Shown here piece by piece: positions 2,847 to 62,555 of a stretch of DNA of 64,000 bases (its first letter is position 1; every line of letters begins with the position of its first letter). Source of the stretch: a virus. The stretch spans positions 95,143 through 159,142 of the IMG/VR virus record IMGVR_UViG_3300031576_000005; one strand, written 5' to 3'. Both the position numbers and the translations under genes were made by a program. The notes under the pieces were generated by a model. That model was not told the origin of the DNA, ran no database searches, and saw only the letters and a program-made list of their open reading frames with translations.

Positions 2847-2852
2847 ATTAAT

Positions 2853-4816: not shown

Positions 4817-4841
4817 ATAAAACTTCTAAAATTTTTCAATG

Positions 4842-5237: not shown

Positions 5238-5249
5238 AAATTTAATATT

Positions 5250-5558: not shown

Positions 5559-5577
5559 ATTTTGTCCTTATTTAATA

Positions 5578-5829: not shown

Positions 5830-6140
5830 ATTTCCGAATCACTTTCTCCTAATTCAAAAACTAAATAAAATTCCTTGTTTTTGTAAGTCGCTACAAATCC
5901 TCCGCTCGAAGCAGAGAAAAATCCTCCGCTCAGAGTAGATTGACTTTTAGCGGTGTCTTTTAAAAGTCTATACGCCGTATTATATAAATCATCAACAGTT
6001 GGAATGCTAGTACAGTCTCCATCCGGATTCCCCGTTGAGTATTTCCACCCCACGGCTTCCATTGCTTTTTGTACTTTGTCAAAATCAAAGCGAGATAAAG
6101 TTAAAGCGATTTTTAATTCTTGTTCTTTTGAGAGTTTCAT
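5826..6140 (-). CDS. Hypothetical protein
   Basis: A 104-aa protein with a helical first half and a glycine/serine-rich stretch (residues 70-82, SGGFFSASSGGF) before a strand-rich tail. No family is recognised. ATGA-type four-base overlaps on both sides tie it translationally to the glycosyltransferase upstream and the small protein downstream. Confidence 0.6.
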   Translation of the reverse strand: MKLSKEQELKIALTLSRFDFDKVQKAMEAVGWKYSTGNPDGDCTSIPTVDDLYNTAYRLLKDTAKSQSTLSGGFFSASSGGFVATYKNKEFYLVFELGESDSEI

Positions 6141-7917: not shown

Positions 7918-8114
7918 ATTTTAAATTTTGCTATAAAATCACTACAAATTCCTGAGATTTTAACTTTTGGTAATCCATAAATTTTAAAATGTTCATCTTT
8001 AGCTATAGAGTATTTAGAGCCTACTTCAGAAATAGCTTCGTTTAATGAAAAAAAATGAATTTCTTTAGTGCTTGCTAGAACCCCGTCTAAATCAAAAATT
8101 ATCAATTTAATCAT
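7914..8114 (-). CDS. Truncated HAD-family phosphatase fragment
   Basis: Only 66 aa. The first residues (IKLIIFDLDGVLAST) are HAD motif I with the nucleophile Asp and acid/base Asp (DLDG), followed by cap-domain-like helices ending near YGLPKVKISG. Full HAD phosphatases of the phosphoglucomutase/gph type are 200 aa or more, so motifs II-IV are missing. The end is an ATGA overlap with the downstream glycosyltransferase, so the truncation is not a simple frameshift. It is either a decayed sugar-phosphatase or a short non-catalytic protein. Confidence 0.65.
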   Translation of the reverse strand: MIKLIIFDLDGVLASTKEIHFFSLNEAISEVGSKYSIAKDEHFKIYGLPKVKISGICSDFIAKFKI

Positions 8115-8136
8115 ACCAATCTTTAAGAGTATAAAT

Positions 8137-9120: not shown

Positions 9121-9770
9121 TTGGGTTTCGCAATATAATCGGGATGATTTTCTTTAACGAGGCTCATTGTATACCCCATATCTTCAAATAGTTTACAAAA
9201 ATCTTCAACGCTTTTGGGGCTAAAATTTTCGTATTCAAATATAACTATAGGTCGACATCGCATAATTGTTTCTCTCGCCCCCTCTATAACATAGTAATCT
9301 GTTCCTTGGGCGTCTATTTTTATAAGATTTACATCTAAATTTAAACTATCCAAGGCCAACATTTTAATTTGTGTGGGTTGTGTTGACTCCCCACATCTAG
9401 TATCCCCAAGGTTGCTTCCCGTTGGGGTATTAATAGTAGCATATCCATTGTATTTCCAACAGGTATAATTATATGAAGTAACATTATCACATTCGTTTAT
9501 ACAAAAATTACCGCACATTTGATTAAAACGCCTAATTTGTGGTTCAAAAGCATGGATATGTTTTACTTTTTTAGCTAAATGAATTATCTGTTCCCCAATA
9601 TAAGAACCAACATCAATAATTACTGATTGATTATTTATATATTTTTCAATTTCTTGTATAACTTCTTCGTCCCATAATTTGTTCTCAAATTTAACGTAAT
9701 TCTCAATAAGGTCTCCGCCATCAGATAGCAATAATTTGCCATAGGGCTTTTTATAAATTGAATATTCCAT
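9117..9770 (-). CDS. FkbM-family methyltransferase
   Basis: A 217-aa class I methyltransferase. VIDVGSYIGE (about residues 51-60) is SAM motif I, HAFEPQ is the acidic motif II, and LIKIDAQGTDYYVIEGA near 155 is the FkbM signature. Family members O-methylate sugars or polyketides, so a glycan methyl ether is the likely product. It is one of three FkbM genes between 9.1 and 12.7 kb and overlaps the upstream gene's end by no more than a few bases. Confidence 0.85.
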   Translation of the reverse strand: MEYSIYKKPYGKLLLSDGGDLIENYVKFENKLWDEEVIQEIEKYINNQSVIIDVGSYIGEQIIHLAKKVKHIHAFEPQIRRFNQMCGNFCINECDNVTSYNYTCWKYNGYATINTPTGSNLGDTRCGESTQPTQIKMLALDSLNLDVNLIKIDAQGTDYYVIEGARETIMRCRPIVIFEYENFSPKSVEDFCKLFEDMGYTMSLVKENHPDYIAKPK

Positions 9771-9771
9771 A

Positions 9772-10404
9772 TTATTTGACTCTTTTAGCTAAGTCTATAA
9801 TAATATCATTTGGATTCATTTCTTTATAATAAAGATTTTCTATATCTTTGATTTTAAATTCATTATAATATTTGGGATTAATAAACCAATCTTCTAAATA
9901 TTTTTTGCCAGCGAATGAAAGTCCAACATTTTCAACAATCATTTTATATGGTTTATCTTTCATAAAAGAACTTAATTTTTCTTTTTGAAATTGTCCATGC
10001 GGGTTATATAAATCGTGCTCTATTGTTAATATTTTAAAATCATATTCTTCAAATGGAAATTTTGATAAAACATTAACGCACGGGTCTTCAATGTATCCGT
10101 TTGGGTCTATATCAATTGTAAGATAATCGATAGCTTTTGGAACTTTAAAATGGTCAAATAATTTTTTGTAATCCAGGTGAAATGCGTCGGCCTGAATAAC
10201 TGTAGATTTTGGCCTGAATTTAGCCGCTTCTTCACAATATCTAGGAAGATATTCTATGAGCAAACCAGTCCAACCGAGTTCCTCTAACCAAGCTGTATTT
10301 GATGCACATGGCTCGCCTTCTCCATTGCCAGCGCCAATATCAACATAATATCCTGAATTTCCCAATAGTAATTGAACAAACAAATCTTGTTGTGATAAAC
10401 TCAT
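9772..10404 (-). CDS. FkbM-like methyltransferase
   Basis: A 210-aa protein with YYVDIGAGNGEGEPCASN (SAM motif I, residues 19-36), LLIEYLPRYCE (motif II region) and YLTIDIDPNGYIED around 113. These place it in the FkbM/class I methyltransferase group, though it is shorter and more divergent than the copies on either side. A glycan O-methyltransferase is the likely role. Confidence 0.75.
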   Translation of the reverse strand: MSLSQQDLFVQLLLGNSGYYVDIGAGNGEGEPCASNTAWLEELGWTGLLIEYLPRYCEEAAKFRPKSTVIQADAFHLDYKKLFDHFKVPKAIDYLTIDIDPNGYIEDPCVNVLSKFPFEEYDFKILTIEHDLYNPHGQFQKEKLSSFMKDKPYKMIVENVGLSFAGKKYLEDWFINPKYYNEFKIKDIENLYYKEMNPNDIIIDLAKRVK

Positions 10405-10424
10405 ATAGTTATATATTTAATTTT

Positions 10425-11054
10425 TTATTTTTCGTAAATTTTTCCATTTATTACCATAATATCAACCGGCGTATTTTTAAAGAAATTATTTGCGTCTTCT
10501 TGAGTTTCTAGTATTGGCTCACCATTTCCATTTAAACTCGTGTTTATTATCATAGGTATATTGGTTTGGCTATAAAAAGATTCAATAAGTTTATAATAAT
10601 TAGGATTTGTTTCCTTGGTAACAGTCTGCATTCTAGCAGAACCATCAATATGTGTGATTGAGGGAATTTCTTTTGGATTTTTCACTTGAGCCGTAAATAA
10701 CATAAAAGGACTTTTTGTAGGAAAATCAAACCATTCTTGGGTTTTTTCTTCTAAAACTGATGGTGCAAACGGCCTGAACCATTCCCTCTTTTTAATTAAA
10801 AAATTTAATAACTCTCTATTATGGAAATTACGTGGGTCTGCTAAAATAGAGCGATGTCCAAGCGCTCTTGGTCCGTGTTCCGATTTTCCATCAAACCATC
10901 CAATAATTTTTCCTTTCGATATTTGTTTTGCTAAAAAATCATATTCAAGCTCTCTCTCTCTCTTCGCCTCCACCCAGATAGCAAATCTCATTATCTGTAT
11001 ATTTGTAACGTGGTTCATTAAACAAATTATGAGTAACGTAAAGTGCCGAACCAA
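10425..11054 (-). CDS. Carbamoyltransferase, C-terminal part (frame after the AG repeat)
   Basis: Open frame holding the C-terminal domain of a NodU/CmcH-type O-carbamoyltransferase. The homologous part starts just after the AG tract at about 10949 and includes GKSEHGPRALGHRSILADPR, the C-domain signature, then FRPFAPSVL and NTSLNGNGEPI. The first ~35 codons (to about 10950) overlap the N-terminal ORF and are only an out-of-frame shadow. No separate start is convincing, so this half is probably made only when the repeat length restores the frame or the ribosome slips. Together the halves make roughly 530 residues, near normal for the family. Confidence 0.8.
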   Translation of the reverse strand: MVRHFTLLIICLMNHVTNIQIMRFAIWVEAKRERELEYDFLAKQISKGKIIGWFDGKSEHGPRALGHRSILADPRNFHNRELLNFLIKKREWFRPFAPSVLEEKTQEWFDFPTKSPFMLFTAQVKNPKEIPSITHIDGSARMQTVTKETNPNYYKLIESFYSQTNIPMIINTSLNGNGEPILETQEDANNFFKNTPVDIMVINGKIYEK

Positions 11055-12021
11055 CCGCTATTCCATCATCACCACAACCAGGAAATAAGTGAACATTTTT
11101 AAATTTAGATTCTTTCAAAATTCTGGTATTAACATTGCAATTGAGCATTGAACCACCACTTAAACATATATTTTTATTTCCTTGATTATCAATATTTTGT
11201 ATACATTTTAAAATCGCTTCCTCGAATATATATTGAAGAGATGCGGCGATATTCATCGCTGTTTTACTATCTTTAAAAGAAGAATCAAAAGCTTTATCTG
11301 TCCTAGAAATTTCTTTCCAAAATTTACAAAATTCCTCCTCAAATACTAACTCTTTGTTAAAAAAGCATCTCTCAACATATGAATTAATATTTTTAATTAT
11401 AAAATCTAACGGCATCCCATAAGATGCTAGACCCATCGTTGAACCAGCTTTATGTAAAGGGTCTCCTAGCCCCAAATTATATGTAAATTTTGTATAAAGA
11501 TTCCCAACCATTAAACCCGGGCAATTAATAGCCAGTATCTTATTATTTTCTCCATAGGCAACTAAAGAATTCCACGCCATCATTCCGGTACTAGAATCCA
11601 AACTGAAACAAAAAGAAGATTGAAATGGACTAGTATAAAAAGATGACGCACAATGCGCCATATGGTGTGGAATTGCTATTGCCGGAATTCTTTTGCCTCT
11701 TATTTCAAAAAATATATTATCTTTTATTATTTGATTACCCACCACACCCTGCGTAAATATTCCGCATTCTTGATTATTTATAAAAAGTTTACATGTTCCG
11801 TTCGCATATTCAGGAAAATAATCGGTAAATGAAATAACGTCAACTTCATTTAATGAAATATTAGATAGTTTTAATCCGTAATCTAATACCTCATTTGTTA
11901 TTCCGTAAGATTTTTTAATTCTAGTAACTCTTTCCGATGAAATTGCCGAAATTAATTTGTTACCTTTTACTACAGCCATTCCCCCGTCGTGTCCTAAATG
12001 AAGCCCTAATATATTAGCCAT
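10945..12021 (-). CDS. Carbamoyltransferase, N-terminal part (ends at AG repeat)
   Basis: N-terminal 358 aa of a NodU/CmcH/TobZ-type enzyme that transfers carbamoyl from carbamoyl phosphate via carbamoyl-adenylate onto a hydroxyl of a sugar. NILGLHLGHDGG opens the ASKHA-like fold, IPHHMAHCASSFY (His119, 120, 123) is the metal/active-site region, and LSGGSMLNCNVN near 295 is the nucleotide loop. The frame dies in ...EERERA-stop because the (AG)7 tract at 10950-10963 is out of register with the C-terminal part. Eight or five AG units would join them. Confidence 0.85.
   Translation of the reverse strand: MANILGLHLGHDGGMAVVKGNKLISAISSERVTRIKKSYGITNEVLDYGLKLSNISLNEVDVISFTDYFPEYANGTCKLFINNQECGIFTQGVVGNQIIKDNIFFEIRGKRIPAIAIPHHMAHCASSFYTSPFQSSFCFSLDSSTGMMAWNSLVAYGENNKILAINCPGLMVGNLYTKFTYNLGLGDPLHKAGSTMGLASYGMPLDFIIKNINSYVERCFFNKELVFEEEFCKFWKEISRTDKAFDSSFKDSKTAMNIAASLQYIFEEAILKCIQNIDNQGNKNICLSGGSMLNCNVNTRILKESKFKNVHLFPGCGDDGIAVGSALYVTHNLFNEPRYKYTDNEICYLGGGEERERA
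10950..10963 (-). repeat. (AG)7 dinucleotide tract inside the carbamoyltransferase gene
   Basis: On the coding strand seven AG units lie between the N-terminal frame (codons GAA GAG AGA GAG AGA GCT TGA) and the C-terminal frame (GAG CTT GAA). One extra unit or two fewer would restore a single open reading frame. It is the longest dinucleotide tract I saw outside plain TA runs. Confidence 0.9.
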
Positions 12022-12024
12022 ATT

Positions 12025-12717
12025 TTATTTTTTTATAGGTTGAAGTAATAAGTCATGTACGTGTTTAGTATCAAAATCTTCTCTACAAACTTTTTCCATA
12101 GTATCTGGATTTAATGGATTATAGCCTATAAAATCAATTGCGTCAAACAAATTATCATTTTTACTTTTATGAAACCACCACTCGGTATAGATTAGTGGTT
12201 TATACATGTCAAGAATTGGTTTAATATTTTTTAATACAACCGGCTCCCAACCTTCTATATCCATTTTTATAAATTTAAGATTGTTCAAATCATGTTTTAA
12301 CAAAAATTGAGCGGTATTAATACAAGGTAATTCCACTAACTGGCAATGCCCACGTTCTTCTTCGATTGAAAATCCATCCATAATACCTCCGTTAGACCTC
12401 CCGCCACCAAAAGTTTTATATTCATCCCTATCCGAACAACCAGTATTATAAGCTGTACAATTTTTTATTTGATTTAATTCTAAATTTTTAATCAAAAAAC
12501 TATATACCTCTGGGTTAATTTCGAAACTCATTACCCCCCCCACAGTCGCCCCCGCTAATATTGACATAGCAATACTAGAAGTTCCTAAATTAGCCCCAAT
12601 ATCCAAACATAAACAGCCCTTTTCTATAAAAGGGGGCAACACCTTCATAAACATATCAAATTCGGCGGGTAAACTCACACCTCTTGGAACATCGATTTGT
12701 GGATATTCAAAAATCAT
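12025..12717 (-). CDS. FkbM-family methyltransferase with a G8 tract
   Basis: A 230-aa methyltransferase with CLDIGANLGTSS (SAM motif I, residues 37-48), SFEINPEVYSF (motif II) and FIKMDIEGWEPVVL near residue 150, the FkbM signature. It is expected to O-methylate a sugar of the glycan. Codons 59-62 (GTG GGG GGG GTA) form a run of eight G, unusual in DNA this AT-rich, and a length change would frameshift the protein after about 60 residues. The frame is intact here, so the gene reads ON. It ends four bases before the carbamoyltransferase. Confidence 0.85.
   Translation of the reverse strand: MIFEYPQIDVPRGVSLPAEFDMFMKVLPPFIEKGCLCLDIGANLGTSSIAMSILAGATVGGVMSFEINPEVYSFLIKNLELNQIKNCTAYNTGCSDRDEYKTFGGGRSNGGIMDGFSIEEERGHCQLVELPCINTAQFLLKHDLNNLKFIKMDIEGWEPVVLKNIKPILDMYKPLIYTEWWFHKSKNDNLFDAIDFIGYNPLNPDTMEKVCREDFDTKHVHDLLLQPIKK
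12534..12541 (-). repeat. G8 homopolymer in the FkbM methyltransferase gene
   Basis: Eight consecutive C on the plus strand (G on the coding strand). Other G/C runs noticed in the window reach only six. It lies in the loop between SAM motif I and the acidic SFE strand. Confidence 0.9.
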
Positions 12718-13955
12718 ACTATTTCTATTTTTGGTAAAGGGAAAATAAATTTTCCACCATTTTTTCTAAATTCAGTTTCTCTTTCCAGAATTTCTGCCTT
12801 AAAATGATAGGGGCCAATAAAATAATAATCTGGTTTCATGTTGCGGCTTTCTTCCTCAGAAATCAACTTAATTCCACTAATTGTAGTAGCTCCAACTTTT
12901 TCTGGGCTGCGTTCTGCTGCGTATTGAATTAAATCTGTTCCAATTTCGCAATATCCAAGAATAGTGTTTAATTTTGTAGACGAACCATAAATATGAATGG
13001 TTTTACCTTCTAACCTAATCTGTTTTAGCAATTTATTCAATTCGGTTTTATGGGCGAGAACTCGACTCCTAAAAATCTCATATGTTGATTCATCATCAAG
13101 AGCGGCATTGAATTCTCCTAAGCGAATTTCCGATAGTCTTTTTCTAGAATTTTCACTATCATAATTGTGACAGTCATCATGTGTTATATAGCACATAATA
13201 CTACCACCATTAGTATCGGTTAATTCTGCGTCAAAAACTTTTAATCCACAGGCTTTCATCATAATTTCAATTGGAGCTAAGTGATAATGAATTATATGCT
13301 CGTTTACGCAAGAATCATAAGATAGATTTTTTAGCATAGAAGGCCAATATGCAACTTCAAAAATCCAAATACCTTTTTTATGTAAAATTTTTTTAATTTC
13401 TTGTGCAAATTCACAAGGATTTTCAACATCATAATAACACGCAATTGAAGTAATAATATTAATGTCTTTTTCTTCGAGGAGTTTGGTCGGGAATAAATCA
13501 TTTATAATTTTAATATCTTTATCTTTCTGACGGGAAGTAATATCACATGGGTCAATCCCAATTTTTTTAAAATTTTCACTATAATTTCTCAAAAGCGTTC
13601 CGTCGTTCATAGCAATATCTAGTACTGTTCCATCATATAAATTGGTAATCCCAGTGGTTTTCCAAACAATTCTTTGCAAATGTTCTCTCATCGTGTTACT
13701 AATACCAGACTGATACCAGTAATTTGTATATAAAATCCTTGGTGGAATTGTATGGCGGGTTTGAACCAAACCACAAGCATTCTCCCATTTTGAAGTATCG
13801 CAACGAACTATTTGGTTTGGGGTTTTGCGAGTGGGGGGATTTGGCACTCCTTCTTTAATAAAAGAACCCTGAAAATATTGATACCCCAAATCCAATACAT
13901 CGGTCAAATGAGGATTACCACAAATTCGGCAGGTTTGACGATACTTAATATTCAT
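12714..13955 (-). CDS. SAM-dependent sugar C-methyltransferase-like protein (paralogue)
   Basis: A 413-aa relative of the gene at 3575-4816 with the same three parts: CRICG zinc region at residues 10-14, SAM fold with VLDIAMNDGTLL near 110, and a C-terminal domain with IYGSSTKLNTILGY and a PDYYFIGPYHF strand. The second zinc pair is altered (RCDTSKWENACG), so metal binding may differ. Probably methylates a keto-sugar nucleotide. It overlaps the FkbM gene by four bases. Confidence 0.8.
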   Translation of the reverse strand: MNIKYRQTCRICGNPHLTDVLDLGYQYFQGSFIKEGVPNPPTRKTPNQIVRCDTSKWENACGLVQTRHTIPPRILYTNYWYQSGISNTMREHLQRIVWKTTGITNLYDGTVLDIAMNDGTLLRNYSENFKKIGIDPCDITSRQKDKDIKIINDLFPTKLLEEKDINIITSIACYYDVENPCEFAQEIKKILHKKGIWIFEVAYWPSMLKNLSYDSCVNEHIIHYHLAPIEIMMKACGLKVFDAELTDTNGGSIMCYITHDDCHNYDSENSRKRLSEIRLGEFNAALDDESTYEIFRSRVLAHKTELNKLLKQIRLEGKTIHIYGSSTKLNTILGYCEIGTDLIQYAAERSPEKVGATTISGIKLISEEESRNMKPDYYFIGPYHFKAEILERETEFRKNGGKFIFPLPKIEIV

Positions 13956-14143
13956 TATTTTAAAAGATGCTCGAAACTCATATCGTCTGGCAAATTTTTT
14001 GGTTCAGAAAATTCAAGTTTGACAATATGTTTTTCACCTTCATCTCTTGGTTTTGCTAAAACCGGGCCTGTAAATGCCCCGGTAGAACCATCAGATAATG
14101 TTATATAAACTATCTGATATTGTTGTTTATTTTTCTTTTTCAT
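13955..14143 (-). CDS. Small hypothetical protein
   Basis: A 62-aa basic-then-acidic protein with two strand-like segments (YQIVYITLSDG, HIVKLEFSEP). No family recognised. Its TAA overlaps the next ATG by one base (TAATG), supporting a real, coupled gene. Confidence 0.55.
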   Translation of the reverse strand: MKKKNKQQYQIVYITLSDGSTGAFTGPVLAKPRDEGEKHIVKLEFSEPKNLPDDMSFEHLLK

Positions 14144-14270
14144 TTTTCCTCTTCTTTAATATCATATCATCAAACTTGACGACTTTCAAGTTCTTTTTGT
14201 ATTTTGTCTTAATTTTATATCCACAAGCCTCAAATAATGTCTTAACCATCCAATATTGATTATTTGTCAT
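14127..14270 (-). CDS. Very small basic protein (47 aa)
   Basis: ATG at 14270, one base after the TAA of the upstream gene, running 47 codons (starts MTNNQYWMVKTLFEACGY, ends in a Lys-rich tail). It fills an otherwise empty gap exactly and overlaps the following start by 17 bases. The opening resembles a short amphipathic helix; function unknown. Confidence 0.5.
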   Translation of the reverse strand: MTNNQYWMVKTLFEACGYKIKTKYKKNLKVVKFDDMILKKRKNEKEK

Positions 14271-14271
14271 A

Positions 14272-14598
14272 TTATTCTACCACAACTTTAGCCGCATATT
14301 CTTGTTCAAACATTTCAAGCCAAAGTTCTGGTTTTAATCCTTTTTGAGAACCATGAACCCAATAGGGAGAAATAACTCTAACGCTAAAGTCTAAATCAAT
14401 CACCCCTTCGTATTTTACCATTTTATCCTTGCTCCAAGCTGTCAATTTATCTCCACTTTTTAAGACATATAAACCCTCATAACCATGCTGCTTTGGGCAG
14501 GTCTTTGATTTTGTTTCATATATACACCAAATAATACCTTCGGTACCAGTTTCAAAAAATGCTTCTAAAAATCCCTTAATATTTTTTTGTTTTTTCAT
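14272..14598 (-). CDS. Hypothetical protein
   Basis: A 108-aa protein, probably beta-rich, with GTEGIIWCIYE, YEGLYVLKSGDKLTAW and PYWVHGSQ. The layout looks like a small phage SH3- or OB-like domain, but I cannot place it. Overlaps the upstream glycosyltransferase by four bases. Confidence 0.6.
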   Translation of the reverse strand: MKKQKNIKGFLEAFFETGTEGIIWCIYETKSKTCPKQHGYEGLYVLKSGDKLTAWSKDKMVKYEGVIDLDFSVRVISPYWVHGSQKGLKPELWLEMFEQEYAAKVVVE

Positions 14599-15383
14599 GA
14601 ATCTTTATATACCATAGGTATCATTTGTCCCATCATTTGATAGTAATGTTCGCTGAAGTATAATTTCTTTGTTTCTTCGTCCCATTTATAAGAGCAAGCT
14701 CCATAATGTTTATTTTGAAAGTCACATTTTCTCTTTAGATATCCATCTATATTCGAAACCCAACTATAATGTTTTGGCGAACTAATCTCAAATGGAATTG
14801 TCTTTCCAAGACATTCTTTATATTTGAGGCCATTTTTAAAAGTTAATTCATCATCAAAATGAAATCCCAAAATACCTTCGTTTTTATCATTTCTCCACCA
14901 CCTTGGAACAATAAAAGTTTTTACATAAGAATTAAAATCAAAGACATAATTCTTAAAATGTGTATTAAACCAACTTATATCTGGATTTTCCGAAATAAAA
15001 TTTAAAGACCGTTCTATTTCTTCTAGCTCCCATACTTCGTCCATATTGAGCATAAATAATAAGTCAATATTTTTAGAGAATAGAAAATCCAAATTGGAAT
15101 TCCAAAACTGATATTCAAATTTGTTGTGGTCAAAAACATTCAGATAATCTATAACTCCTTCTTTATGAAGCTTTTGGAATTTTTCAATCGTACCATCGGT
15201 TGAGTAAAGAGGGAATCCAATTGCCGCCGTTTCATTAAAACAACCATGGGCTGTTCCAATATGAACTTCCTCAATAACATTGCTCAACGCCCCTTGTTTA
15301 ACTTTTCGCCACGGGGCAAAAACTTTATCTAAATGTTCAATACATTGATAGCCTAGCGAGGTAATTCCAATTTTATATTTCAT
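14595..15383 (-). CDS. Glycosyltransferase-like protein (GT-A fold)
   Basis: A 262-aa protein opening YKIGITSLGYQCIEHL, with LLFMLNMDEVWE near residue 110, where NMDE is the likely metal-binding DxD equivalent, and a W-rich second half (PRWWRND, HYSWVSNIDGYLKRK). The order fits GT2-like transferases that act on surface sugars. The family match is weaker than for the tandem pair. It is coupled to the epimerase gene upstream by a four-base overlap. Confidence 0.65.
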   Translation of the reverse strand: MKYKIGITSLGYQCIEHLDKVFAPWRKVKQGALSNVIEEVHIGTAHGCFNETAAIGFPLYSTDGTIEKFQKLHKEGVIDYLNVFDHNKFEYQFWNSNLDFLFSKNIDLLFMLNMDEVWELEEIERSLNFISENPDISWFNTHFKNYVFDFNSYVKTFIVPRWWRNDKNEGILGFHFDDELTFKNGLKYKECLGKTIPFEISSPKHYSWVSNIDGYLKRKCDFQNKHYGACSYKWDEETKKLYFSEHYYQMMGQMIPMVYKDS

Positions 15384-16285
15384 AGGTAAGAAATTGGTAC
15401 ATCGCGTTTTCCAACGTGTATTTCATGAAAGTACAACATTATTCCTTCTACAATAGTTTCTATATTGTCACAAAATTCAAAATTGAAATTAGTAGAAAAT
15501 TTATTGGAATTAATAGTAAAATCATAATTACTCCGTCCTTCTCCTACGGTTAATTTTACGTCTAGTATTTGACTTACCTTTTCCCCAATATCTTTAACAG
15601 TTGCATTGAATGATGCAAGATTATAGATGCCTCGTAATTTTCTATCATTGGTTTCAATAATTCTAGTTACAGCACTACATAAATCTAAGATTCCGAGGAT
15701 TGGCCTAGAAATTTCTGGCGAACTAACAAAAATCTCTTTTTGTCTAAGTCCATTGGTGGCCATTGAGTTTATCATAATATCGGAGCGGAAATTTGGGGCT
15801 TGGCCATTTACAGTCCCAAATCTCAATCCATAAAAGTGTAAACCACAAAGCTTGGCGTGGTTATCAATTTCTGATTTACTTAAATCGTAAGAGTTCTCTG
15901 GTATAAAGATATCGCATCTTTCGGTAGCTTGGTTAACCCTGACATTTCCATAAACGCTAGAACTACTAGCATAAATGAAGATTGTGTCTTTATTCAATTT
16001 GGGCAAAAGATTTACGAAATTCCTTACGTTGTTGTTGAAACAAGAAACATTGTTTCCTTCTGACATTTGAACCGAGGAATGCCCTGCTAACAAAATGATT
16101 GCTTGATATTTATTATAAAACTCTGGCGTCAGATAAGCAAAGTCTAGGTTAATATTATTGGGGTTAGTATAATTACCAAACCATTCTAAATCGACGGTAT
16201 CTACTTGATAATCCGGGCGGTTATTGAGGAATTGATATAAAGCCCCGCCAATATAGCCCGTTCCACCTAGTATTAAAATTTTCAT
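15380..16285 (-). CDS. NAD-dependent sugar epimerase/dehydratase (SDR)
   Basis: A 301-aa extended SDR. ILGGTGYIGGAL (residues 4-15) is the NAD-binding motif, YASSSSVYGN near 105 gives the catalytic Ser, and YDLSK near 133 the YxxxK pair. LRFGTVNGQAP follows as in nucleotide-sugar epimerases. Epimerase, dehydratase or reductase activity on a sugar nucleotide is likely; which one is not clear. Confidence 0.85.
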   Translation of the reverse strand: MKILILGGTGYIGGALYQFLNNRPDYQVDTVDLEWFGNYTNPNNINLDFAYLTPEFYNKYQAIILLAGHSSVQMSEGNNVSCFNNNVRNFVNLLPKLNKDTIFIYASSSSVYGNVRVNQATERCDIFIPENSYDLSKSEIDNHAKLCGLHFYGLRFGTVNGQAPNFRSDIMINSMATNGLRQKEIFVSSPEISRPILGILDLCSAVTRIIETNDRKLRGIYNLASFNATVKDIGEKVSQILDVKLTVGEGRSNYDFTINSNKFSTNFNFEFCDNIETIVEGIMLYFHEIHVGKRDVPISYL

Positions 16286-16287
16286 TT

Positions 16288-16923
16288 TTATTGTAGAGAA
16301 ACTAAGGGAATATGGGGCGTCATAATAGGTTCAAAAGCTCTATAAAGCATGTTAAAAAATACAGGAAAATCTACGTCTTTCTTGCTTGGAAAAGCGTTTG
16401 TAAATCCTTCTTGTACTAACCTGAAAGCTAATGTATTCTTCATGCCCTGGCGTAATAAATCCAAATTAAGAGTAAAGGGTGGCAATAATATAAATGCAGA
16501 CCTTAATATTTTTCCTTGAAATTCAGTAGTTCTTGAAAAATCATATACTTCGTTGCTAGATTTAGAATTGCCAATAGCCAAACATGGTTTTGTGGCCAAA
16601 TAATCTAAATTAAATTCAAAATCTACAAATTCGTTTCCTTCTTGGTAGCAAATTGCATCAACATTTTCATTATTCATAGCCGCAGTAAGTGATTCTAGCA
16701 AAACTTTGCCAGATGGAACAGCATTATTATATTCAAAAAGCTGATAATTATGACGCCCAATCCTACTACTGTCCATTATATTTCTAATTATTTTAGTCAT
16801 TCCTTTATCGAGACCATTATTAATTAAATAAATTAAGCCCCCCTCTTCTAGCTTGATATATTTGGGAGAATCGATATCCCCATTTTTTAAATTATAAATG
16901 TATAGAGTTTTCATTTTATTCAT
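16288..16923 (-). CDS. Hypothetical protein in the glycan cluster
   Basis: A 211-aa protein (ATG at 16923; a second ATG at 16914 would drop three residues). It contains MKTLYIYNLKNGD, a DAICYQEGNEFVDF stretch and a hydrophobic proline-rich segment (FILLPPFTLNLDLL) near 145. No family recognised. Its position two bases upstream of the epimerase suggests a shared transcript and perhaps a role in sugar handling. Confidence 0.55.
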   Translation of the reverse strand: MNKMKTLYIYNLKNGDIDSPKYIKLEEGGLIYLINNGLDKGMTKIIRNIMDSSRIGRHNYQLFEYNNAVPSGKVLLESLTAAMNNENVDAICYQEGNEFVDFEFNLDYLATKPCLAIGNSKSSNEVYDFSRTTEFQGKILRSAFILLPPFTLNLDLLRQGMKNTLAFRLVQEGFTNAFPSKKDVDFPVFFNMLYRAFEPIMTPHIPLVSLQ

Positions 16924-17077
16924 ATTTAATATAACCTAGTAAATGTTTAGAGGTTAGTAGACAAAGTAGGGCTAATACAATTTTCCAGCCGCCAAGCCAA
17001 ATGATTAACCCATAAGCACAGACAACAAAGATTAATGAGAGGACTGCTAATAGTTGGTTTTTAGTTTCTTTATTCAT
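16916..17077 (-). CDS. Small membrane protein (53 aa)
   Basis: ATG at 17077, ATGA-overlapped with the TGA of the upstream gene, and TAA overlapping the next start. Two hydrophobic segments (about residues 9-28 and 32-42, around a GGWK turn) predict a two-pass inner-membrane hairpin. No homology recognised; overlap at both ends argues that it is real. Confidence 0.6.
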   Translation of the reverse strand: MNKETKNQLLAVLSLIFVVCAYGLIIWLGGWKIVLALLCLLTSKHLLGYIKYE

Positions 17078-17445
17078 ATTTCCTTCATATCGTTTCCATA
17101 TTCTAAATATATCATTTTAAGAAAAATCTTAAATATTCCTTCTGGATTACCATTTCTTATAGCCGTCATGCCATTAATATTTATTATATATTTATTTTGT
17201 TGTATGGCCGCAAGATGAGTTTTAATTTCTATAATTTTATTATCTTGCGTATTTTTAAGAATGATACTCCCACATTCTTTATAAATTTCTATGTAATTTG
17301 GTAGTTTGTAGATTGCTTGAAATGAGTTAAATAATTCTAATATTGGCCTAAATTCTATTTTGCAAGCCAATGAAATAGCGTCTTTAGCCTTTTGTTCGCT
17401 CTCTATCTCAATTCTAACATTCGCAACCATTTCTTGAATGTTCAC
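17074..17445 (-). CDS. Hypothetical protein
   Basis: A 123-aa, probably helix-strand protein (IQEMVANVRIEIESEQKAKDAI helix, then short strands). Overlaps the neighbours by four bases on both sides. No known domain. Confidence 0.6.
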   Translation of the reverse strand: MNIQEMVANVRIEIESEQKAKDAISLACKIEFRPILELFNSFQAIYKLPNYIEIYKECGSIILKNTQDNKIIEIKTHLAAIQQNKYIININGMTAIRNGNPEGIFKIFLKMIYLEYGNDMKEI

Positions 17446-17708
17446 AAATCCTTCGTAAAATTGAATTTAGTTTGGGCTTTTTCTAGTTCTTCTTTGTTTT
17501 TTGTTTTTAAATATAAAGCAATGAATTGCTGATTTGCTAAAATCCATTGTTCGACCATATAGTCAAAATTTGTTTGGTCGTCTTCAATATGTTTGCCAGT
17601 TTCTGAATCTATAGTATAATTTGGACTAAATTCTTTATAATATTGATTAGGCGTCAATGATGCTCGATTCCAACACCTTATGAATAATCCTGAAGGTTTC
17701 TTACTCAT
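17442..17708 (-). CDS. Hypothetical protein
   Basis: An 88-aa protein with several aromatic residues early (FIRCWNRASL, YYKEFSPNYTI) and a helical C-terminal half. It starts after a 31-base gap behind the GT9-like gene. Function unknown. Confidence 0.6.
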   Translation of the reverse strand: MSKKPSGLFIRCWNRASLTPNQYYKEFSPNYTIDSETGKHIEDDQTNFDYMVEQWILANQQFIALYLKTKNKEELEKAQTKFNFTKDL

Positions 17709-17739
17709 TAGTAAAATATAGCAGTTTCGTTAAGAATAA

Positions 17740-18651
17740 TCAAGTAAAATCTTTCTTGATTAGCAGATTTCTCATATCGGCCTGATAGGGGATTTGTACG
17801 TAGGCCGGAATAGCAGATGTGAGAGGTTCGGTCAAATTGAGCATTACTCTGTTGAAAATCGACTCAAGAGGCGATTCTAGGGGCATGTCGTCCTCACATG
17901 TCTCGTGGTAACGAATTATATGGTATGGCGTCTGGTAGCGTTGCTGGAGCACTATACGCGGGATTTGGAGATGAAATGAAATATGTGCGTATGCGGAATC
18001 TATTCCGATGAAATAATCACACTTATTTAATATATTTATCGTCTCCTCTAATGGGCGGTCTACTAAATCTATATAATTACCTTGGCAGAAAAAGGGTAGC
18101 GGACTTCCTTTCCATTGTGAGGTTCTTGCAATAATTATATTATAACCTACTTTATTAAATAAATTTACTAATGCTTGCAGTTTTGGCAACGGATAATTCT
18201 TTTCCATTGTTATCGACGTAACATGTATAAAAATATTCTTAGTATTTGGCTTGATTGCCTCATGTTTGAAGTTTTCATTTGCTTTTAATGAGACTTTCGT
18301 TTGCATGAAGGCTTTATACGTTCGCACATAATCTTTCCATGGAAAGGCGTGCCATGCTAGGGTAAGACTGTCTGGCCAGCATGAATAAACCGCATCATAT
18401 TCATTAATTAAATTATCTAGGAACGTCTTTGGCAAATTAAGGGGGTTTTCTGGGTCTTTATACTCATTCGTTCTTGACGGACACTGAAAAACATTGAAGT
18501 AGGTGCATTTCTTTATGAAATCCAATATTTCTATATGGGAATTTACATATATGTCTGCCTTTCGATTATGTTCGGCTTCAAATAATGTGGCCGCCGAAAG
18601 CGCCTGGCAAACATCCCCAATACCGCCACATGTTATAATTGCACAGCTCAT
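17740..18651 (-). CDS. Glycosyltransferase, GT9 heptosyltransferase-like
   Basis: A 303-aa GT-B protein. CGGIGDVCQAL (residues 8-18) matches the N-terminal glycine/Asp loop of GT9 heptosyltransferases, and DYFIGIDSAYAHISFHL near 212 matches the conserved C-terminal D/S-x2-H motif. It could add heptose or a related sugar to a lipopolysaccharide-type core. The DNA is visibly richer in G+C than its neighbours, which suggests later acquisition. Its ATGA overlaps the reconstructed end of the broken HNH gene. Confidence 0.75.
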   Translation of the reverse strand: MSCAIITCGGIGDVCQALSAATLFEAEHNRKADIYVNSHIEILDFIKKCTYFNVFQCPSRTNEYKDPENPLNLPKTFLDNLINEYDAVYSCWPDSLTLAWHAFPWKDYVRTYKAFMQTKVSLKANENFKHEAIKPNTKNIFIHVTSITMEKNYPLPKLQALVNLFNKVGYNIIIARTSQWKGSPLPFFCQGNYIDLVDRPLEETINILNKCDYFIGIDSAYAHISFHLQIPRIVLQQRYQTPYHIIRYHETCEDDMPLESPLESIFNRVMLNLTEPLTSAIPAYVQIPYQADMRNLLIKKDFT

Positions 18652-19446
18652 TTGTTTATATTTAAGGCTTCTTTCATGTATTTTGTGAATTGTTTAAATT
18701 GTTGTGGTGTATTATAGCGATTTCCGAAAATTTTATGAAATAGAATATGAAATTCTTTTAAAATTGTGACGCCATTTACAACATCAAATCGTTTTCTGGA
18801 TAATCAGCCCAATTATAGAGATGGTGAGCGGCGAGCTTTCCCCCTGTAATTTTAAGGATTTCATCTGTATAATCATCCTTCTCAAACACTTTTTTCGCCA
18901 TTCTCGAAGCTCTGGATTAAGACTTCTATTTTTACTATTTTCTCTTTCTTCTTGGGTTAAATCATGTCTCCAATTAAAGCTTTTTTCACCCCTTTTAGAT
19001 AAACCTATTTTTAAACGAGATTCATCGGAGTGATGTTTACCAAAGTGAGATAAACTCATTTTTGTTAGGGTTTCATTCGAAGGACAATAATCAAACTTTG
19101 GATGTTCTTTTCCGCATTTTCCAAATAAATAACTTTTTTCTCCTTTATGAGATAAACTCAACTTTTGCTTCGTTTCTTCAGAATGATGCTTTCCATAAAA
19201 AGGATTTTTCTTTCCCTTTAAAGCCAAACTCATTTTTTTAATAGATTCTCTATTATGCTTTTTCCCATACATTGGGTGTCTGTCTCCCTTTTGACGACAG
19301 GATTTACAATATTTTACCCCCTTAGATTTAAGTGCATTATTTTTATTAATTATTCTTTCTTTTCCACAATCATCGCAGCGAACCAAACTTTTAATTCGAC
19401 TTTTCTTTCCATTATAAGTGTTACAAAAATCTAAACAAATTATCAT
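18650..19446 (-). pseudogene. NUMOD3-HNH homing endonuclease, two frameshifts
   Basis: Reads normally from MIICLDFCNTY through the CxxC pairs and NUMOD3 repeats to RNSLNPELREWRKK-type sequence at about 18900. One A is missing from the run around 18894, which turns the expected VFEKDDYTDE into CLRRMIIQ; the frame then continues KITGGKLAAHHLYNW. A second missing A near 18796 shifts again to RFDVVNGVTILKEFHILFHKIFG, which runs to a TGA at 18650 joined to the next ATG. Restored, it would match the sister copies end to end. Confidence 0.8.
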
Positions 19447-19447
19447 A

Positions 19448-20665
19448 TCATTTATTAAACCATTCTCCAAATATTCTTATTATATAATTTAAATCTTCTT
19501 TTGTTAAAAAAGAATGACATCCTATATAAAATCCTCGTTCAAGAATTTCCCACGACATTGGAAAGTTAGTCCTAAAATTTATTTTAGTACCAAAATATTT
19601 TTCAGTTATGGGGGTATAAAGCGGCAAAATTTCTCTCGTCTCTATGCCATTCTTTTCTAAAAAATGTATTAATTCCCATTTTTCTCCATGCGGCGAACGA
19701 ATTGGAAGCATCATATGCCTAGCCTCTTCTTCTCTGGAAAATTTAGGCAAAATTAATGGAAATTGGCTTAGTTCTTTGATTAAATATTCTGAATTTTCTT
19801 TCCTCTTTTGTAATTGTCCTAAAAAGTCATCTTCCAGCATTGATAATGCAAATGCCGATTCGGTTTCCCCCAGTCTAAAATTCAGTCCCGGTTGGACGAA
19901 TTTGAATCTCTTACTTGTTATATCTCTTAAAATAGCTCCTTCTACATCGTCATCGTCTATACAGGTATATTCAGGGCTTCTACCATGATTAACGTAGCTC
20001 CTTGCATGGATTATCAAACGTTCGTCATTTGTTCCGATAAAACCACCGCACCCACCAGCAACAAGTAGATGGGAAATATATGTACTCCATGCGGTAAAAT
20101 GAGCAAAGCTTTCTGGATACTGAGAATTGAACCTACTACAAATGTTCTCGCATGAATCCAAAATAAAGAAAATATCTTTATCGTATAAATCAATTATCTC
20201 TTTAATCCTTAGTCCATCAACCGGTCTCCCCATTAATGAAGATGGCATAACCGCGAATATATCTCTAGAATGCTCTTTTAATTTACTCTCTAAATCTGTA
20301 TAACAAATATTATAATTTGCACCGACATCGACAAATAATGGTTCAAATCCGTTGGAAGTAATTACATTGCAGTCACTTATAAAAGTTGTTGCCGGTAAAA
20401 CAATATATTTACGTTTGGCCGCTGCTTCTGGATACAAATTTTTTAAAACTCCAATAGAAGCGTAGAGCGCCGCCGTTCCGCTAGAACAGAAAACAGCATA
20501 TTTCACCCCATTCATCTCAGCAAATAATTTCTCAAGTTTTTGGGAAATCGGACCATATGTTAATCGTCTGGACTTAATAATCTGCTTTAGGTATTTATCA
20601 AGCCCCTTAGCTGGATACCAATCGCCGAATCCTATAGATTTAACAGGCTTTTTTACTTCACTCAT
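19448..20665 (-). CDS. DegT-fold sugar 3-dehydratase (ColD/RfbH-like), His at PLP lysine site
   Basis: A 405-aa DegT/DnrJ/EryC1-fold protein. SSGTAALYASIGVL (residues 61-74) is the PLP phosphate loop and ILDSCEN (170 region) gives the ring-binding Asp. At the place where aminotransferases have S-x4-K, this protein has STYIS-His199-LLVAGGCGG. A histidine here is the hallmark of the 3-dehydratases ColD and E1/RfbH, which remove the C3 hydroxyl of a 4-keto-6-deoxysugar nucleotide. So the product is likely a 3,6-dideoxy sugar precursor rather than an amino sugar. This is inference from residue choice; length is normal. Confidence 0.85.
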   Translation of the reverse strand: MSEVKKPVKSIGFGDWYPAKGLDKYLKQIIKSRRLTYGPISQKLEKLFAEMNGVKYAVFCSSGTAALYASIGVLKNLYPEAAAKRKYIVLPATTFISDCNVITSNGFEPLFVDVGANYNICYTDLESKLKEHSRDIFAVMPSSLMGRPVDGLRIKEIIDLYDKDIFFILDSCENICSRFNSQYPESFAHFTAWSTYISHLLVAGGCGGFIGTNDERLIIHARSYVNHGRSPEYTCIDDDDVEGAILRDITSKRFKFVQPGLNFRLGETESAFALSMLEDDFLGQLQKRKENSEYLIKELSQFPLILPKFSREEEARHMMLPIRSPHGEKWELIHFLEKNGIETREILPLYTPITEKYFGTKINFRTNFPMSWEILERGFYIGCHSFLTKEDLNYIIRIFGEWFNK

Positions 20666-38272: not shown

Positions 38273-38523
38273 TGGTATTTATAGTAGAGTACAATAACCC
38301 AAGCACATAATATTAAACCAATCGCCTGATTTAAAAACCAATACAAGGGACAAACAGTAAGATAAGAATAAGCAAAGGAAGCTACATATCCCAAGATACT
38401 TAGCCAATATTGGCCAACAGAAATGTCTTTGGCCGATTTTAATTTATATAGTTTAATGATTTGTGGAACATAGCAAAGACAAAAGCCAAAAACCATTAGA
38501 AAACCGAATATATGAATTAACAT
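38269..38523 (-). CDS. SemiSWEET/PQ-loop-like membrane protein
   Basis: An 84-aa, three-helix membrane protein (about residues 2-22, 38-57, 61-80). CYVPQIIKLYKLKSAKD holds the PQ motif at 20-21, and the size and three-helix layout match bacterial SemiSWEET half-transporters, which dimerise to move sugars. Such a transporter is unexpected in a phage. It overlaps the HNH gene's end by seven bases. Confidence 0.7.
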   Translation of the reverse strand: MLIHIFGFLMVFGFCLCYVPQIIKLYKLKSAKDISVGQYWLSILGYVASFAYSYLTVCPLYWFLNQAIGLILCAWVIVLYYKYQ

Positions 38524-39212
38524 AGGATTTCTTTCATGTATTGTTTGAATTCTTCGAATTGGGTGGGGGTGTTATGTTTTGTTCCATAAATGTTATGAAA
38601 AAGAGTATGGATATCTTTTCTAAGAGTAATGCCATTGGCTATATCGAATCTTTTATCAGGATGAGACCACCAGTTAAAGATATGATGAGCAACTAGATTC
38701 CCACCGCTTAAATCTCCTGTAATTTGACATGTATAATTGTCTCGCTCAAAAATTAATTTTCTCCATTCTCGAAGCTCTGGATTAAGATTTCTATTTTGAT
38801 TATTTTCTCTCTCTTCTTGTGTCAAGTCGTGACGCCAGCGAGGATGTTTTTCTCCTCTTTCAGATTCTGATAATTTTCTTTTAAATTCTTCTGTATGGTG
38901 CGTACCAAACATTGGGTTCTTTTCCCCTAGCTTTGTTAAACTTAATTTCTCCAATGTTTCTTGCGAAAAAATTTTTCCTTTTGCAGATAAACTCATCTTG
39001 CTACGAGTTTTTTTAGAATGATGTCTACCGAAAAGGTATTGTTTTTCCCCTTTTCTACAACAAGAACGACAGAATTTCGACCCAACATTTCTAATGGCAT
39101 TGCCTTTCAAAATAAGTCTTTTCGTTCCGCAATCATCACATTCGACCAAGCTTTTTGTTTTAGTTGGTTTTCCATCTCCATACGTATTTAGAAAATTCAA
39201 ACAAAGTATCAT
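38517..39212 (-). CDS. HNH homing endonuclease with NUMOD3 repeats (intact)
   Basis: A 231-aa family member: MILCLNF start, CxxC pairs near 25-52, NUMOD3 repeats (YLFGRHHSKKTRSKMSLSAKG and others) to about 130, and an intact HNH core (RDNYTCQITG, VAHHIFNW, LFHNIYG). Ends just past the SemiSWEET start. A good reference for the broken copies. Confidence 0.9.
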   Translation of the reverse strand: MILCLNFLNTYGDGKPTKTKSLVECDDCGTKRLILKGNAIRNVGSKFCRSCCRKGEKQYLFGRHHSKKTRSKMSLSAKGKIFSQETLEKLSLTKLGEKNPMFGTHHTEEFKRKLSESERGEKHPRWRHDLTQEERENNQNRNLNPELREWRKLIFERDNYTCQITGDLSGGNLVAHHIFNWWSHPDKRFDIANGITLRKDIHTLFHNIYGTKHNTPTQFEEFKQYMKEILC

Positions 39213-46243: not shown

Positions 46244-46990
46244 TTAATTTAATATATTTTGTTTAAATTCTTCAAATTGAGCTTTCGTATTATTTCCTTT
46301 GCCATAAATCTTATGAAATAATTTATGATATGCCTGTGAAATAGTAATTCCATTATTTATATCAAAACGCTGCTTGGGGAATTTATTCCAACCATTAAGA
46401 TGATGGACAACTAAACTTCCACCTTTAATTCCGGTTATTTTACAAGTATGATTATCGCGTTTAAATATTAATTCACGCCATTCGTGCATTTGTGGATTAT
46501 ACATTCTATTTTGGCTATTTTCCCTTTCTTCTATAGTTAAAGCATCGTTCCATCGTGGATGTTTATCTCTGCGTTTACCAAACATACCACTTTTTTCTCC
46601 TTTGTTACCAGCGCCTATTTTTTCGCGAGTTTCTTTTGTGGTCGGATGACCGTTTTGTGCCAAACTCATCTTTTTACGAGTTTCTTGAGAAACAATTTTA
46701 CCTATCTGTCCCAAACTTATTTTCTGCTTGTGTTCTTCTCCTAATTTCTTTCCAAGATGAGCCAGTCTCATTTTTTCACGAATTTCTTTAGATATATGTT
46801 TGCCAAAAAGAGGATGGTTCTTTCCTTTTTTAGCACACGAATTACAATATTTTATACCCTTCCCGATGTCGGCATTGTCTTTCCGTATAACTCTTTTTCC
46901 TTTACAATTATCGCATTCAACTAATGACCCCAAGCGTTGCTTATTTGATTTCCCGAAGGTTATTTTAATAAAATTTAAACAAATAATCAT
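46244..46990 (-). CDS. HNH homing endonuclease with NUMOD3 repeats (intact)
   Basis: A 248-aa member with CxxC pairs, four to five NUMOD3 repeats (FGKHISKEIREKMRLAHLG and following) and an intact HNH core (RDNHTCKITG, VVHHLNGW, LFHKIYG). Unlike its sisters it has its own promoter 14 bases ahead. Confidence 0.9.
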   Translation of the reverse strand: MIICLNFIKITFGKSNKQRLGSLVECDNCKGKRVIRKDNADIGKGIKYCNSCAKKGKNHPLFGKHISKEIREKMRLAHLGKKLGEEHKQKISLGQIGKIVSQETRKKMSLAQNGHPTTKETREKIGAGNKGEKSGMFGKRRDKHPRWNDALTIEERENSQNRMYNPQMHEWRELIFKRDNHTCKITGIKGGSLVVHHLNGWNKFPKQRFDINNGITISQAYHKLFHKIYGKGNNTKAQFEEFKQNILN

Positions 46991-60684: not shown

Positions 60685-61639
60685 ATGACGGGGAGTGAAA
60701 ATTATTATTCTAGGCGTGGGTATAAACCCATTGGAAAAAAAATATGTGAATGTTGTGGTATTGAAATGATTATTTATTTACAAAGAGATTTATTACGTAA
60801 GAGATTTTGTTCTAGGAAGTGTTTCGGAATAGTTAATTGTAAAGAAAATAATTTAAGACCACCAATACCAAAAAGTACAAAAGTAAAAGAAATTAAAATA
60901 ATTTGTAAAAAAATAAAGAAAAATATTATTAAAAAGCCCCCCTCGCATAATCGAGAAATATTTTTGTAAATTATGTGGTAAACAAATATGTAAAAATGGT
61001 AAAACCGGTTTATGTCTTATATGTTTCGATAAGGGAAGAACTAAGAATATTGATTTTAAATGTGAGTTTTGTAATAAGGATGCAAAATTAAAACCAAGCT
61101 ATTTTAAAGATAGAAAATATCGTTTTTGTTCTAAGCCGTGTTATCTTAAGATTCTAGAATTATCAAGTAAGTCTCGAATAAAATTTAATTGTGAATTTTG
61201 TAATAAGGAAATTATTCGATATAAAAGTCTGCTAAATGGGAAAAGAAAATTTTGTTCATATAAATGTTGTTGTGAATTTTATAAAAAAACGGGTAAAGAA
61301 AGTCAATTTTATATAGATGGAAGAACTCCATTGAGAAAATTAATTAAAAATTGTGAAAAATATAAACAATGGCAACGTTCTTGTTTCACAAGAGATAATT
61401 GGATGTGTGTTAAATGTAAAAATAAAAATAAATTACATGTACATCATCTTAGAAGATTCTCAATAATATATAATGATTTTTTATTAAAATATTCTCATCT
61501 TTCTCCAGAAAAAGACAAAGAAGAGCTTAATATGTTATCCAGAGAATATAATGATTTTTGGGATATTTCTAATGGTCAAACCTTATGTTATTTATGCCAT
61601 CAGAAAGAACATCCGGAAATAAATTTAACTTTAAAATAA
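60685..61639 (+). pseudogene. Zinc-ribbon HNH endonuclease, one frameshift (plus strand)
   Basis: First part, from ATG 60685, has CECCG...FCSRKC and stops after ...HNREIFL. A C6 run at 60937-60942 has one C too many; with five the frame reads on through further CxxC zinc fingers (CKLCG, CEFCN, CSKPC) to the HNH core (RDNWMCVKCKNKNKLHVHHLRRF, then CYLCH) at 61331-61639. About 318 aa when joined. The only plus-strand endonuclease here. Confidence 0.7.
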
Positions 61640-61661: not shown

Positions 61662-61865
61662 ATGCCGTTAGTAAAACCAACGGAAGGCGAAAAAGAGCAG
61701 GAATTCATCTCTAGATGTATGGAAAATAAAGAATCTAATAAAAAATTTCCAAACCAAAAGCAGCGAGCCGGAGTCTGTTTTTCACTTTGGAAGAAATCTA
61801 AAAAGAAAAAATCAAAAGCTTCCGAGGATTCCATAGAAGATATTGATATAATTATTTTAGATTAA
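61662..61865 (+). CDS. Small phage protein
   Basis: A 67-aa protein: MPLVKPTEGEKEQEFISRCM, FPNQKQRAGVCFSLW then a Lys-rich and acidic tail. This motif set is known from small proteins near phage head genes. The gene converges on the tRNA-like element. Confidence 0.7.
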   Translation: MPLVKPTEGEKEQEFISRCMENKESNKKFPNQKQRAGVCFSLWKKSKKKKSKASEDSIEDIDIIILD

Positions 61866-61934
61866 TAGCCACCCTGGTTTGCCAGGTTCTCAGCCCCCAG
61901 AGGACTGCGTCTTAATACATTAAACTAGTGGCTA
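61866..61934 (-). tRNA. tRNA-like cloverleaf, anticodon-position CUG, short T loop
   Basis: On the minus strand 69 bases fold as a tRNA: 7-bp acceptor (TAGCCAC/GTGGCTA), T8-A9, 4-bp D stem (GTTT/AGAC) with 9-base loop, G26, 5-bp anticodon stem (CAGTC/GGCTG) with loop CTCTGGG (U33, anticodon CUG, Gln), 4-base variable region, 5-bp T stem (CCTGG/CCAGG). The T loop has only CAAA (4 bases) and the D loop lacks GG, so it is degenerate or highly divergent. It fills the convergent gap exactly. Confidence 0.45.
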
Positions 61935-61938
61935 AACA

Positions 61939-62202
61939 TTAATCTGTAGTTACCGTGGTAGTCGGTACGACTACAGCGGGTGTAACTACGACACTCCTTC
62001 GTCCGAGGCGATTTGGGGGGACTCCCAAGCGTTTGCGAAGATGTAATATAGTCAATGGAGAAACTTTTAATTCTTTACCATTAACTAAAATTCGTTTTTC
62101 TGTGATTGAGGTGGCAATAGCCTTATTTGATTGTGTCCAATCAACAACAACTCCTTCTGGCACTACGAATGCCTTACGACCGCGTTTTGTATTAGTACTC
62201 AT
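61939..62202 (-). CDS. Hypothetical protein
   Basis: An 87-aa basic protein (RGRKAFVVPEG, HLRKRLGVPPNRLGRR), richer in G+C than its surroundings, with a Val/Thr-rich end. May bind DNA. AGAAG-like bases lie before the ATG. Confidence 0.6.
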   Translation of the reverse strand: MSTNTKRGRKAFVVPEGVVVDWTQSNKAIATSITEKRILVNGKELKVSPLTILHLRKRLGVPPNRLGRRSVVVTPAVVVPTTTVTTD

Positions 62203-62222
62203 TTTCTTCTTTCTTTTTTTGG

Positions 62223-62555
62223 TTAAAATTCTTCGGCTTGTTTCCTATATTTAGAAATTAAAAGCCTTTCATATGTGTTATAACAATTTATAGCATTGTT
62301 TAGCTTCTTTGACAAGATATATTTGTTTAATATGTCAAAAATTATTAAAGATAAATGAAAAGTTAGTCCCAAAGATACAATTAAAAAATTTCCAGATATT
62401 ACCGCCATAATTAGTCCAAGCAGAGTTAATATATATAAAGTATTTATTCCTAGCCTATTAGGTACTCTATCAGTTTCTAAATCACGTATTGTCCTTAAAT
62501 GATACAGTCTGCTTTTTTCATCGAACGATAAGAGTCTTTGGATGTTTGGTGGCAT
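62223..62555 (-). CDS. Two-pass membrane protein
   Basis: A 110-aa protein with two hydrophobic helices (about residues 40-57 and 60-80) between charged ends. Unknown. Confidence 0.6.
   Translation of the reverse strand: MPPNIQRLLSFDEKSRLYHLRTIRDLETDRVPNRLGINTLYILTLLGLIMAVISGNFLIVSLGLTFHLSLIIFDILNKYILSKKLNNAINCYNTYERLLISKYRKQAEEF

Follow-up and report, generated by a model that had tools for sequence, protein, structure and literature searches.

The window analysed here is a stretch of 64,000 nucleotides that corresponds to positions 95143-159142 in a virus record 159,142 bases long (GC 33.7%). Its genes include those for terminase, portal protein, a DnaB-like helicase, UvsX/RecA, ribonucleotide reductase and PhoH. 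The virus is a tailed phage distant from the phage collection, with a terminase showing ~24% identity to those of Bacillus and Microcystis phages. About 20 kb of the window (816-20665) are rich in sugar genes, which encode NDP-sugar epimerases, C-methyltransferases (Methyltransf_13/14), a DegT aminotransferase and a glycosyltransferase of family 9. Paralogues resembling homing endonucleases are scattered over the window (71-826, 38517-39212 and 46244-46990), and at least three others lie outside it; they start with MI(I/V/L)CL(N/D)F, and NUMOD3 was recognised in both of the two tested and HNH_2 in one. The locus examined here is a spacer of 73 nt between two converging open reading frames, and the features in and around it are as follows.

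60685-61639, plus strand: HNH endonuclease gene with its frame broken near 60940, in the pieces 60685-60969 and 61331-61639 (ORF and domain searches)
61662-61865, plus strand: 67-aa ORF, numerous relatives among viral contigs (ORF list, relative search)
61859-61945, no strand assigned: 14-bp inverted repeat, AGATTAATAGCCAC / GTGGCTA(aaca)TTAATCT, enclosing the cloverleaf (repeat scan; pairing in a 121-nt fold)
61866-61934, minus strand: tRNA-like cloverleaf of 69 nt with 21 of 21 pairs (sequence, cloverleaf scans, tRNA covariance models at 21.2 and 19.0 bits)
61939-62202, minus strand: 87-aa ORF upstream of the cloverleaf on its own strand, with no relatives found (ORF list, searches)

The cloverleaf occupies 69 of the 73 spacer positions. 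The initial annotation had described it as fitting between two converging genes, and it does lie flush against the plus-strand gene at 61866, with four nucleotides (61935-61938) left on the other side. A minus-strand operon adjoins it on one side and an island of plus-strand genes, formed by the broken HNH gene and the 67-aa gene, on the other. The minus-strand 87-aa ORF is less certain than its plus-strand counterpart, as it has no relatives and is overlapped by a competing plus-strand ORF (61955-62254). The HNH gene contains zinc-ribbon repeats, and its frame is interrupted close to six consecutive C at ~60936-60942, which reflects either genuine decay or a sequencing error. The 67-aa protein carries the motif MPxxKPxxxExxQEFISRCM...QRxAVCxxxW and has more than 80 relatives, spread over diverse viral contigs; elsewhere the motif forms the N-terminus of longer proteins. 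PHROG and Pfam searches with this protein gave no match, and the motif is apparently one that is widespread in phages and still without a name.

Read on the minus strand from 61934 to 61866, the sequence of the cloverleaf is TAGCCAC TA GTTT AATGTATTA AGAC G CAGTC CTCTGGG GGCTG AGAA CCTGG CAAA CCAGG GTGGCTA. Its parts, all on the minus strand, are listed below.

61928-61934, minus strand: 5' strand of the acceptor stem, TAGCCAC (sequence; pair probability 0.67-1.0)
61909-61925, minus strand: D arm, GTTT-AATGTATTA-AGAC, weak (pair probability 0.3-0.5), its loop without GG
61891-61907, minus strand: anticodon arm, CAGTC-CTCTGGG-GGCTG (sequence, predicted fold)
61898-61900, minus strand: CUG triplet at the anticodon position (34-36)
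61873-61886, minus strand: T arm, CCTGG-CAAA-CCAGG, with a loop of 4 nt (sequence; the covariance alignment fills 4 of 7 loop positions)
61866-61872, minus strand: 3' strand of the acceptor stem, GTGGCTA, CCA not encoded, next base U

The stems of 7, 4, 5 and 5 pairs are paired throughout, two of the pairs being G-U, and follow one another at canonical tRNA spacings; G10-C25, G53-C61 and U1-A72 are present. The initial annotation had read the stem lengths and spacings, U8-A9, U33, the CUG triplet, the four-base T loop and the GG-less D loop correctly in every case. A standard T loop has 7 nt, for example TTCAAAT. The bases that build the elbow of a tRNA, G18G19 in the D loop and the 7-nt T loop UUCNANN, are absent from the loops AATGTATTA and CAAA, and both elbow loops are changed in a matching way, one being without G18G19 and the other without U54U55C56. 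Position 73 is a U situated inside the stop codon of the plus-strand gene, and the identity base G73 is missing. In the predicted fold, the anticodon loop is narrowed to a CUG triloop by the additional pairs C32-G38 (probability 1.0) and U33-G37 (0.81), and the D arm forms in only 30-50%. Both strands fold, with predicted energies of -25.7 for the minus strand and -20.3 for the plus strand; the minus strand makes the better RNA because two of its stem pairs are G-U, which become mismatches on the other strand.

Thermodynamic stability alone is unremarkable for the composition of the element: the MFE z-score is -2.2, and 6 of 200 shuffles are equally stable. It is therefore the cloverleaf geometry, and not mere stability, that stands out. 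Geometry taken by itself is not rare genome-wide, as a permissive cloverleaf grammar finds 1.18 perfect cloverleaves per dinucleotide-shuffled genome. This rate of about one per genome, together with the fact that the initial annotation had picked the cloverleaf out of a long sequence, speaks for its random origin in an unconstrained spacer. We regard such an origin as extremely improbable, as the matches in shuffled genomes are nowhere near as stable (none of 473 in 400 shuffled genomes reaches -15 kcal/mol or below, against -21.2 for the cloverleaf at 61866-61934), and shuffles of the spacer itself, which retain its high GC content, yielded only five perfect cloverleaves in 1.3 million trials (5 in 1,297,781). 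Real DNA served as a further control, with 831 kb drawn from T4, T5, KVP40, E. coli, phage contigs and the rest of this genome. This sample contains 11 perfect cloverleaves at or below -15, all of them at -19.2 or below and all 11 annotated as tRNAs, and the remaining six perfect cloverleaves have energies of -11.5 or weaker. Within the 831-kb sample, geometry and stability together are a tRNA signature. Perfect cloverleaves are found in only 11 of the ~31 real tRNAs of the control, and the element at 61866-61934 is thus more regular than most.

The tRNA-likeness of the element was assessed with three models: a covariance model from 29 tRNAs of T4, T5, E. coli and the phage itself (R1), a second covariance model built from 44 aligned matches (R2) and a sequence-only tRNA model (R3). 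In the covariance search with R1 and R2, a check proposed in the initial annotation, the cloverleaf ranks first in the window at 19-21 bits, followed by matches at 12-14 bits. The unfiltered R1 search of the 64-kb window assigns it 21.2 bits (E 2.6e-4; runner-up 11.8), and R2 assigns it 19.0 bits (E 0.002; runner-up 14.3); the filtered R1 search is without it, the match apparently being lost at the first filter. Over the remaining 95 kb of the genome, the cloverleaf is surpassed by one match only, a true tRNA (51.8 bits), and the rest score 10.4 or less. A covariance search of 556 kb of control DNA with filters on returned nothing above 17.6 outside the T5 RNA genes. The cloverleaf scores as high as the annotated tRNA-like RNA2 of T5, which receives 16.9 bits from R1 and 20.9 from R2; T5 RNA1 receives 25.3.

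The gene-finder check also proposed in the initial annotation did not detect the cloverleaf, as ARAGORN reports 0 genes in the window; the Rfam search produced no RF00005 report for it, and R3 finds no match to it at E<=10, against 14-37 bits for most T5 tRNAs. The covariance score is therefore carried by the base pairs. The loop bases match the tRNA consensus at 9 of 11 positions, compared with a mean of 4.7 on permuting the loop letters (P 0.008, with positions picked post hoc). Common tRNA letters minus G, UU and U might be recognised in the D arm (TAGTTTAATG-TA) and in the T loop (CAAA), a likeness that is suggestive only. The tRNAscan-SE rule labels as pseudogenes those tRNAs that score below 55 bits overall and below 10 bits for the primary sequence (PMC8450103). 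Under this rule, the cloverleaf would be labelled a pseudogene, with the proviso that the models used here differ from those of tRNAscan-SE; its covariance score lies above background and below those of true tRNAs, and its primary score is low.

The true tRNA mentioned above is the sole recognised tRNA of the genome and lies outside the window, at genome positions 376-444, on the minus strand like the cloverleaf. It would be situated ~2.4 kb from the cloverleaf if the ends of the record join, a junction that is hypothetical. Its anticodon is UCA, reading UGA, and it has an A in place of U33; TGA is the stop codon of 36 of the 150 ORFs over 100 aa. It is possibly an opal-suppressor or a misread tRNA. 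The sequence of the cloverleaf is different, and it is not a copy of this tRNA.

Several other identities were considered and rejected. A ribozyme, riboswitch or member of another Rfam family finds no match at gathering score, the matches at E<=10 being chance-level ones to snoR11, CRISPR-DR30 and JPX_1. The cloverleaf has a single copy in the genome and is not a repeat or mobile element. A circularly permuted tRNA-His lacks a T arm where one is required, though GTGGCTA...TAGCCAC is also the acceptor of the T5 tRNA-His.

Relatives with the same spacer were not found in viral contigs, phages, plasmids, or bacterial and archaeal genomes. DNA patterns searched against viral contigs gave nothing or chance matches to coding-like DNA, and no close relative was found there for PhoH, the terminase, the portal protein or the 87-aa protein. 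Spacers downstream of the relatives of the 67-aa protein contain no similar element. Two exact patterns for a progenitor tRNA, searched against 84,980 species genomes, had no match.

On the strength of the covariance score, the loop consensus and the control scan, we infer that the cloverleaf is a tRNA-derived, non-decoding RNA element, either a relic or a tRNA-like RNA, located at the 3' terminus of a transcript from the minus strand, and we hold this explanation with about even confidence. A former phage tRNA gene would have kept all four stems and lost the parts needed for translation in bacteria, namely the D-loop GG, the 7-nt TPsiC loop and with it the elbow, the discriminator base, the encoded CCA and the open anticodon loop. 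If the cloverleaf is transcribed at all, it would form the 3' tail of the operon on the minus strand (62202-61939 and upstream) and would be seated on a 14-bp stem formed by leader and trailer. Such a stem should disfavour tRNA end processing and would leave the RNA as a stable structure at the 3' end, placed between the two converging transcripts. The suggestion in the initial annotation that the element could be a decaying tRNA agrees with the covariance scores, the real-DNA controls and the loop-consensus matches. The silence of ARAGORN and Rfam and the lack of an R3 match fit a tRNA that no longer works. The neighbourhood offers a parallel: a broken HNH endonuclease gene lies close to the cloverleaf, and T5 has a comparable arrangement, in which its tRNAQ2 (CUG) pseudogene and an HNH gene overlap. 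Against tRNA derivation stand the 21 of 21 intact pairs, though decay normally breaks stems, as well as the lack of a match to R3, the weak D arm, the silent Rfam tRNA model and the failure to find a progenitor or relative.

The outer inverted repeat also counts against tRNA derivation. This 14-bp repeat, whose inner half is the acceptor stem, covers the last codons and the stop codons of both flanking genes, and no other of its kind occurs in the 159-kb genome under the criteria used. Predicted folds of the longer RNA contain the repeat, with the leader pairing to the trailer. Such pairing is not a feature of tRNAs and would be likely to hinder the processing of their ends; an extension of the acceptor stem to 14 bp is unneeded by tRNA genes and needed by convergent 3'-end structures, for which a stem of this kind is expected. 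Together with the unbroken stems and the absent sequence similarity, the outer repeat speaks for a structured 3'-end element shared by the two genes: a stem working in both directions, which would protect mRNA ends or separate transcripts, and whose tRNA spacing would be due to convergence and luck. A 3'-end element of this sort, not derived from a tRNA, is a serious possibility, to which we give roughly one chance in three. The filling of 69 of the 73 spacer bases, the genome-unique repeat reaching into both stop codons, the concentration of most of the stability in two strong inner hairpins beside a weak D arm, the folding of both strands and the absent sequence-only tRNA signal are all consistent with it. 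Neither strand, however, has a U-tract or a terminator-like site at 61866-61934, and the element is therefore not a classical terminator: the combination of a GC-rich hairpin and a U-run that defines an intrinsic (bidirectional) terminator is lacking, whereas what look like ordinary U-tract terminators are present elsewhere in the genome, for example near 43471. The G-U pairs point to the minus strand rather than to a symmetric element, and a structure unrelated to tRNA would not be expected to show tRNA spacings, to agree with the loop consensus at 9 of 11 bases and to score 19-21 bits.

If the element is derived from a tRNA, the question arises whether it still acts as one. A working, unusual tRNA-Gln(CUG) reading CAG, its T loop shortened like those of certain animal mitochondrial tRNAs, would account for the intact stems, U8, U33, G10-C25, G53-C61 and U1-A72. 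We consider it barely credible, given the negative ARAGORN and Rfam results, the missing elbow, G73 and CCA, and the status of CAG as the minor Gln codon of this phage (296 against 1130 CAA). On established knowledge of tRNA structure, it is very unlikely that a phage tRNA with such defects would be charged or used by bacterial ribosomes, and the elongation machinery of bacteria is not known to accept tRNAs of this kind. The assignment to the Gln type in the initial annotation is matched by the loop letters CUG and by U1-A72 only; G73 is absent, and no progenitor tRNA was found.

A role that dispenses with decoding could be served by a functional tRNA mimic, an uncharged and stable cloverleaf serving as a decoy that draws off proteins which bind or cut tRNAs, among them anticodon nucleases. 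In a phage tRNA of this elbow-less kind, the stems would be under selection, and the elbow and 3' end would have been stripped to leave a decoy or binding platform for host proteins that target tRNA. Perfect stems combined with the loss of translation-essential loops would suit such a role; there is precedent for phage tRNAs that counteract tRNA-cutting defences (PMC10264068, PMC11555353), and T5 possesses stable tRNA-like RNAs of unknown function. We nevertheless judge both the decoy function and the selective stripping it implies to be rather unlikely. The analysis revealed no partner, defence context or relative for such a mimic, and it is mildly disfavoured by the predicted CUG triloop, which would hide the anticodon from an anticodon nuclease, and by the leader-trailer pairing, which speaks against release as a small RNA.

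The combination of perfect stems with a missing elbow, passed over by standard tRNA finders, suggests that similar RNAs may be overlooked in phage genomes. The cloverleaf at 61866-61934 is a concrete test object for phage tRNA-like RNAs, and if it is a mere relic, it clearly exemplifies a phage tRNA whose loops were lost ahead of the stems.

Among known systems, the metazoan mitochondrial tRNAs with short or absent T or D arms (PMC2797822) share with the cloverleaf a shrunken T loop and the lack of the GG/TPsiC elbow. The element described here differs in belonging to a bacterial phage, with no matching translation machinery, and CCA is not encoded. The bidirectional rho-independent terminators found between convergent phage genes, one of which is annotated in T5, likewise consist of an inverted repeat between convergent genes; the cloverleaf differs from them in its lack of U-tracts, multi-branched interior and larger loop. 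RNA1, RNA2 and RNA3 of T5, annotated as 'tRNA-like stable RNA with unknown functions', are similar in their tRNA-like parts and low covariance scores (16.9-20.9 for RNA2, 25.3 for RNA1). These RNAs lie inside a tRNA cluster and are longer, at 144 nt for RNA1 and 125 nt for RNA2, whereas the present element is a lone, compact cloverleaf of 69 nt known from sequence alone. The tRNAQ2 (CUG) pseudogene of T5, which overlaps the HNH gene hegD, retains a normal T loop and CCA and scores 59 bits with R1, in contrast to 21 bits for the cloverleaf, which is without these parts. The two are alike in being degenerate phage tRNAs, if the tRNA derivation of the cloverleaf holds, with CUG at the anticodon position and an HNH gene adjoining, and in the T5 annotation HNH genes sit among the tRNA genes.
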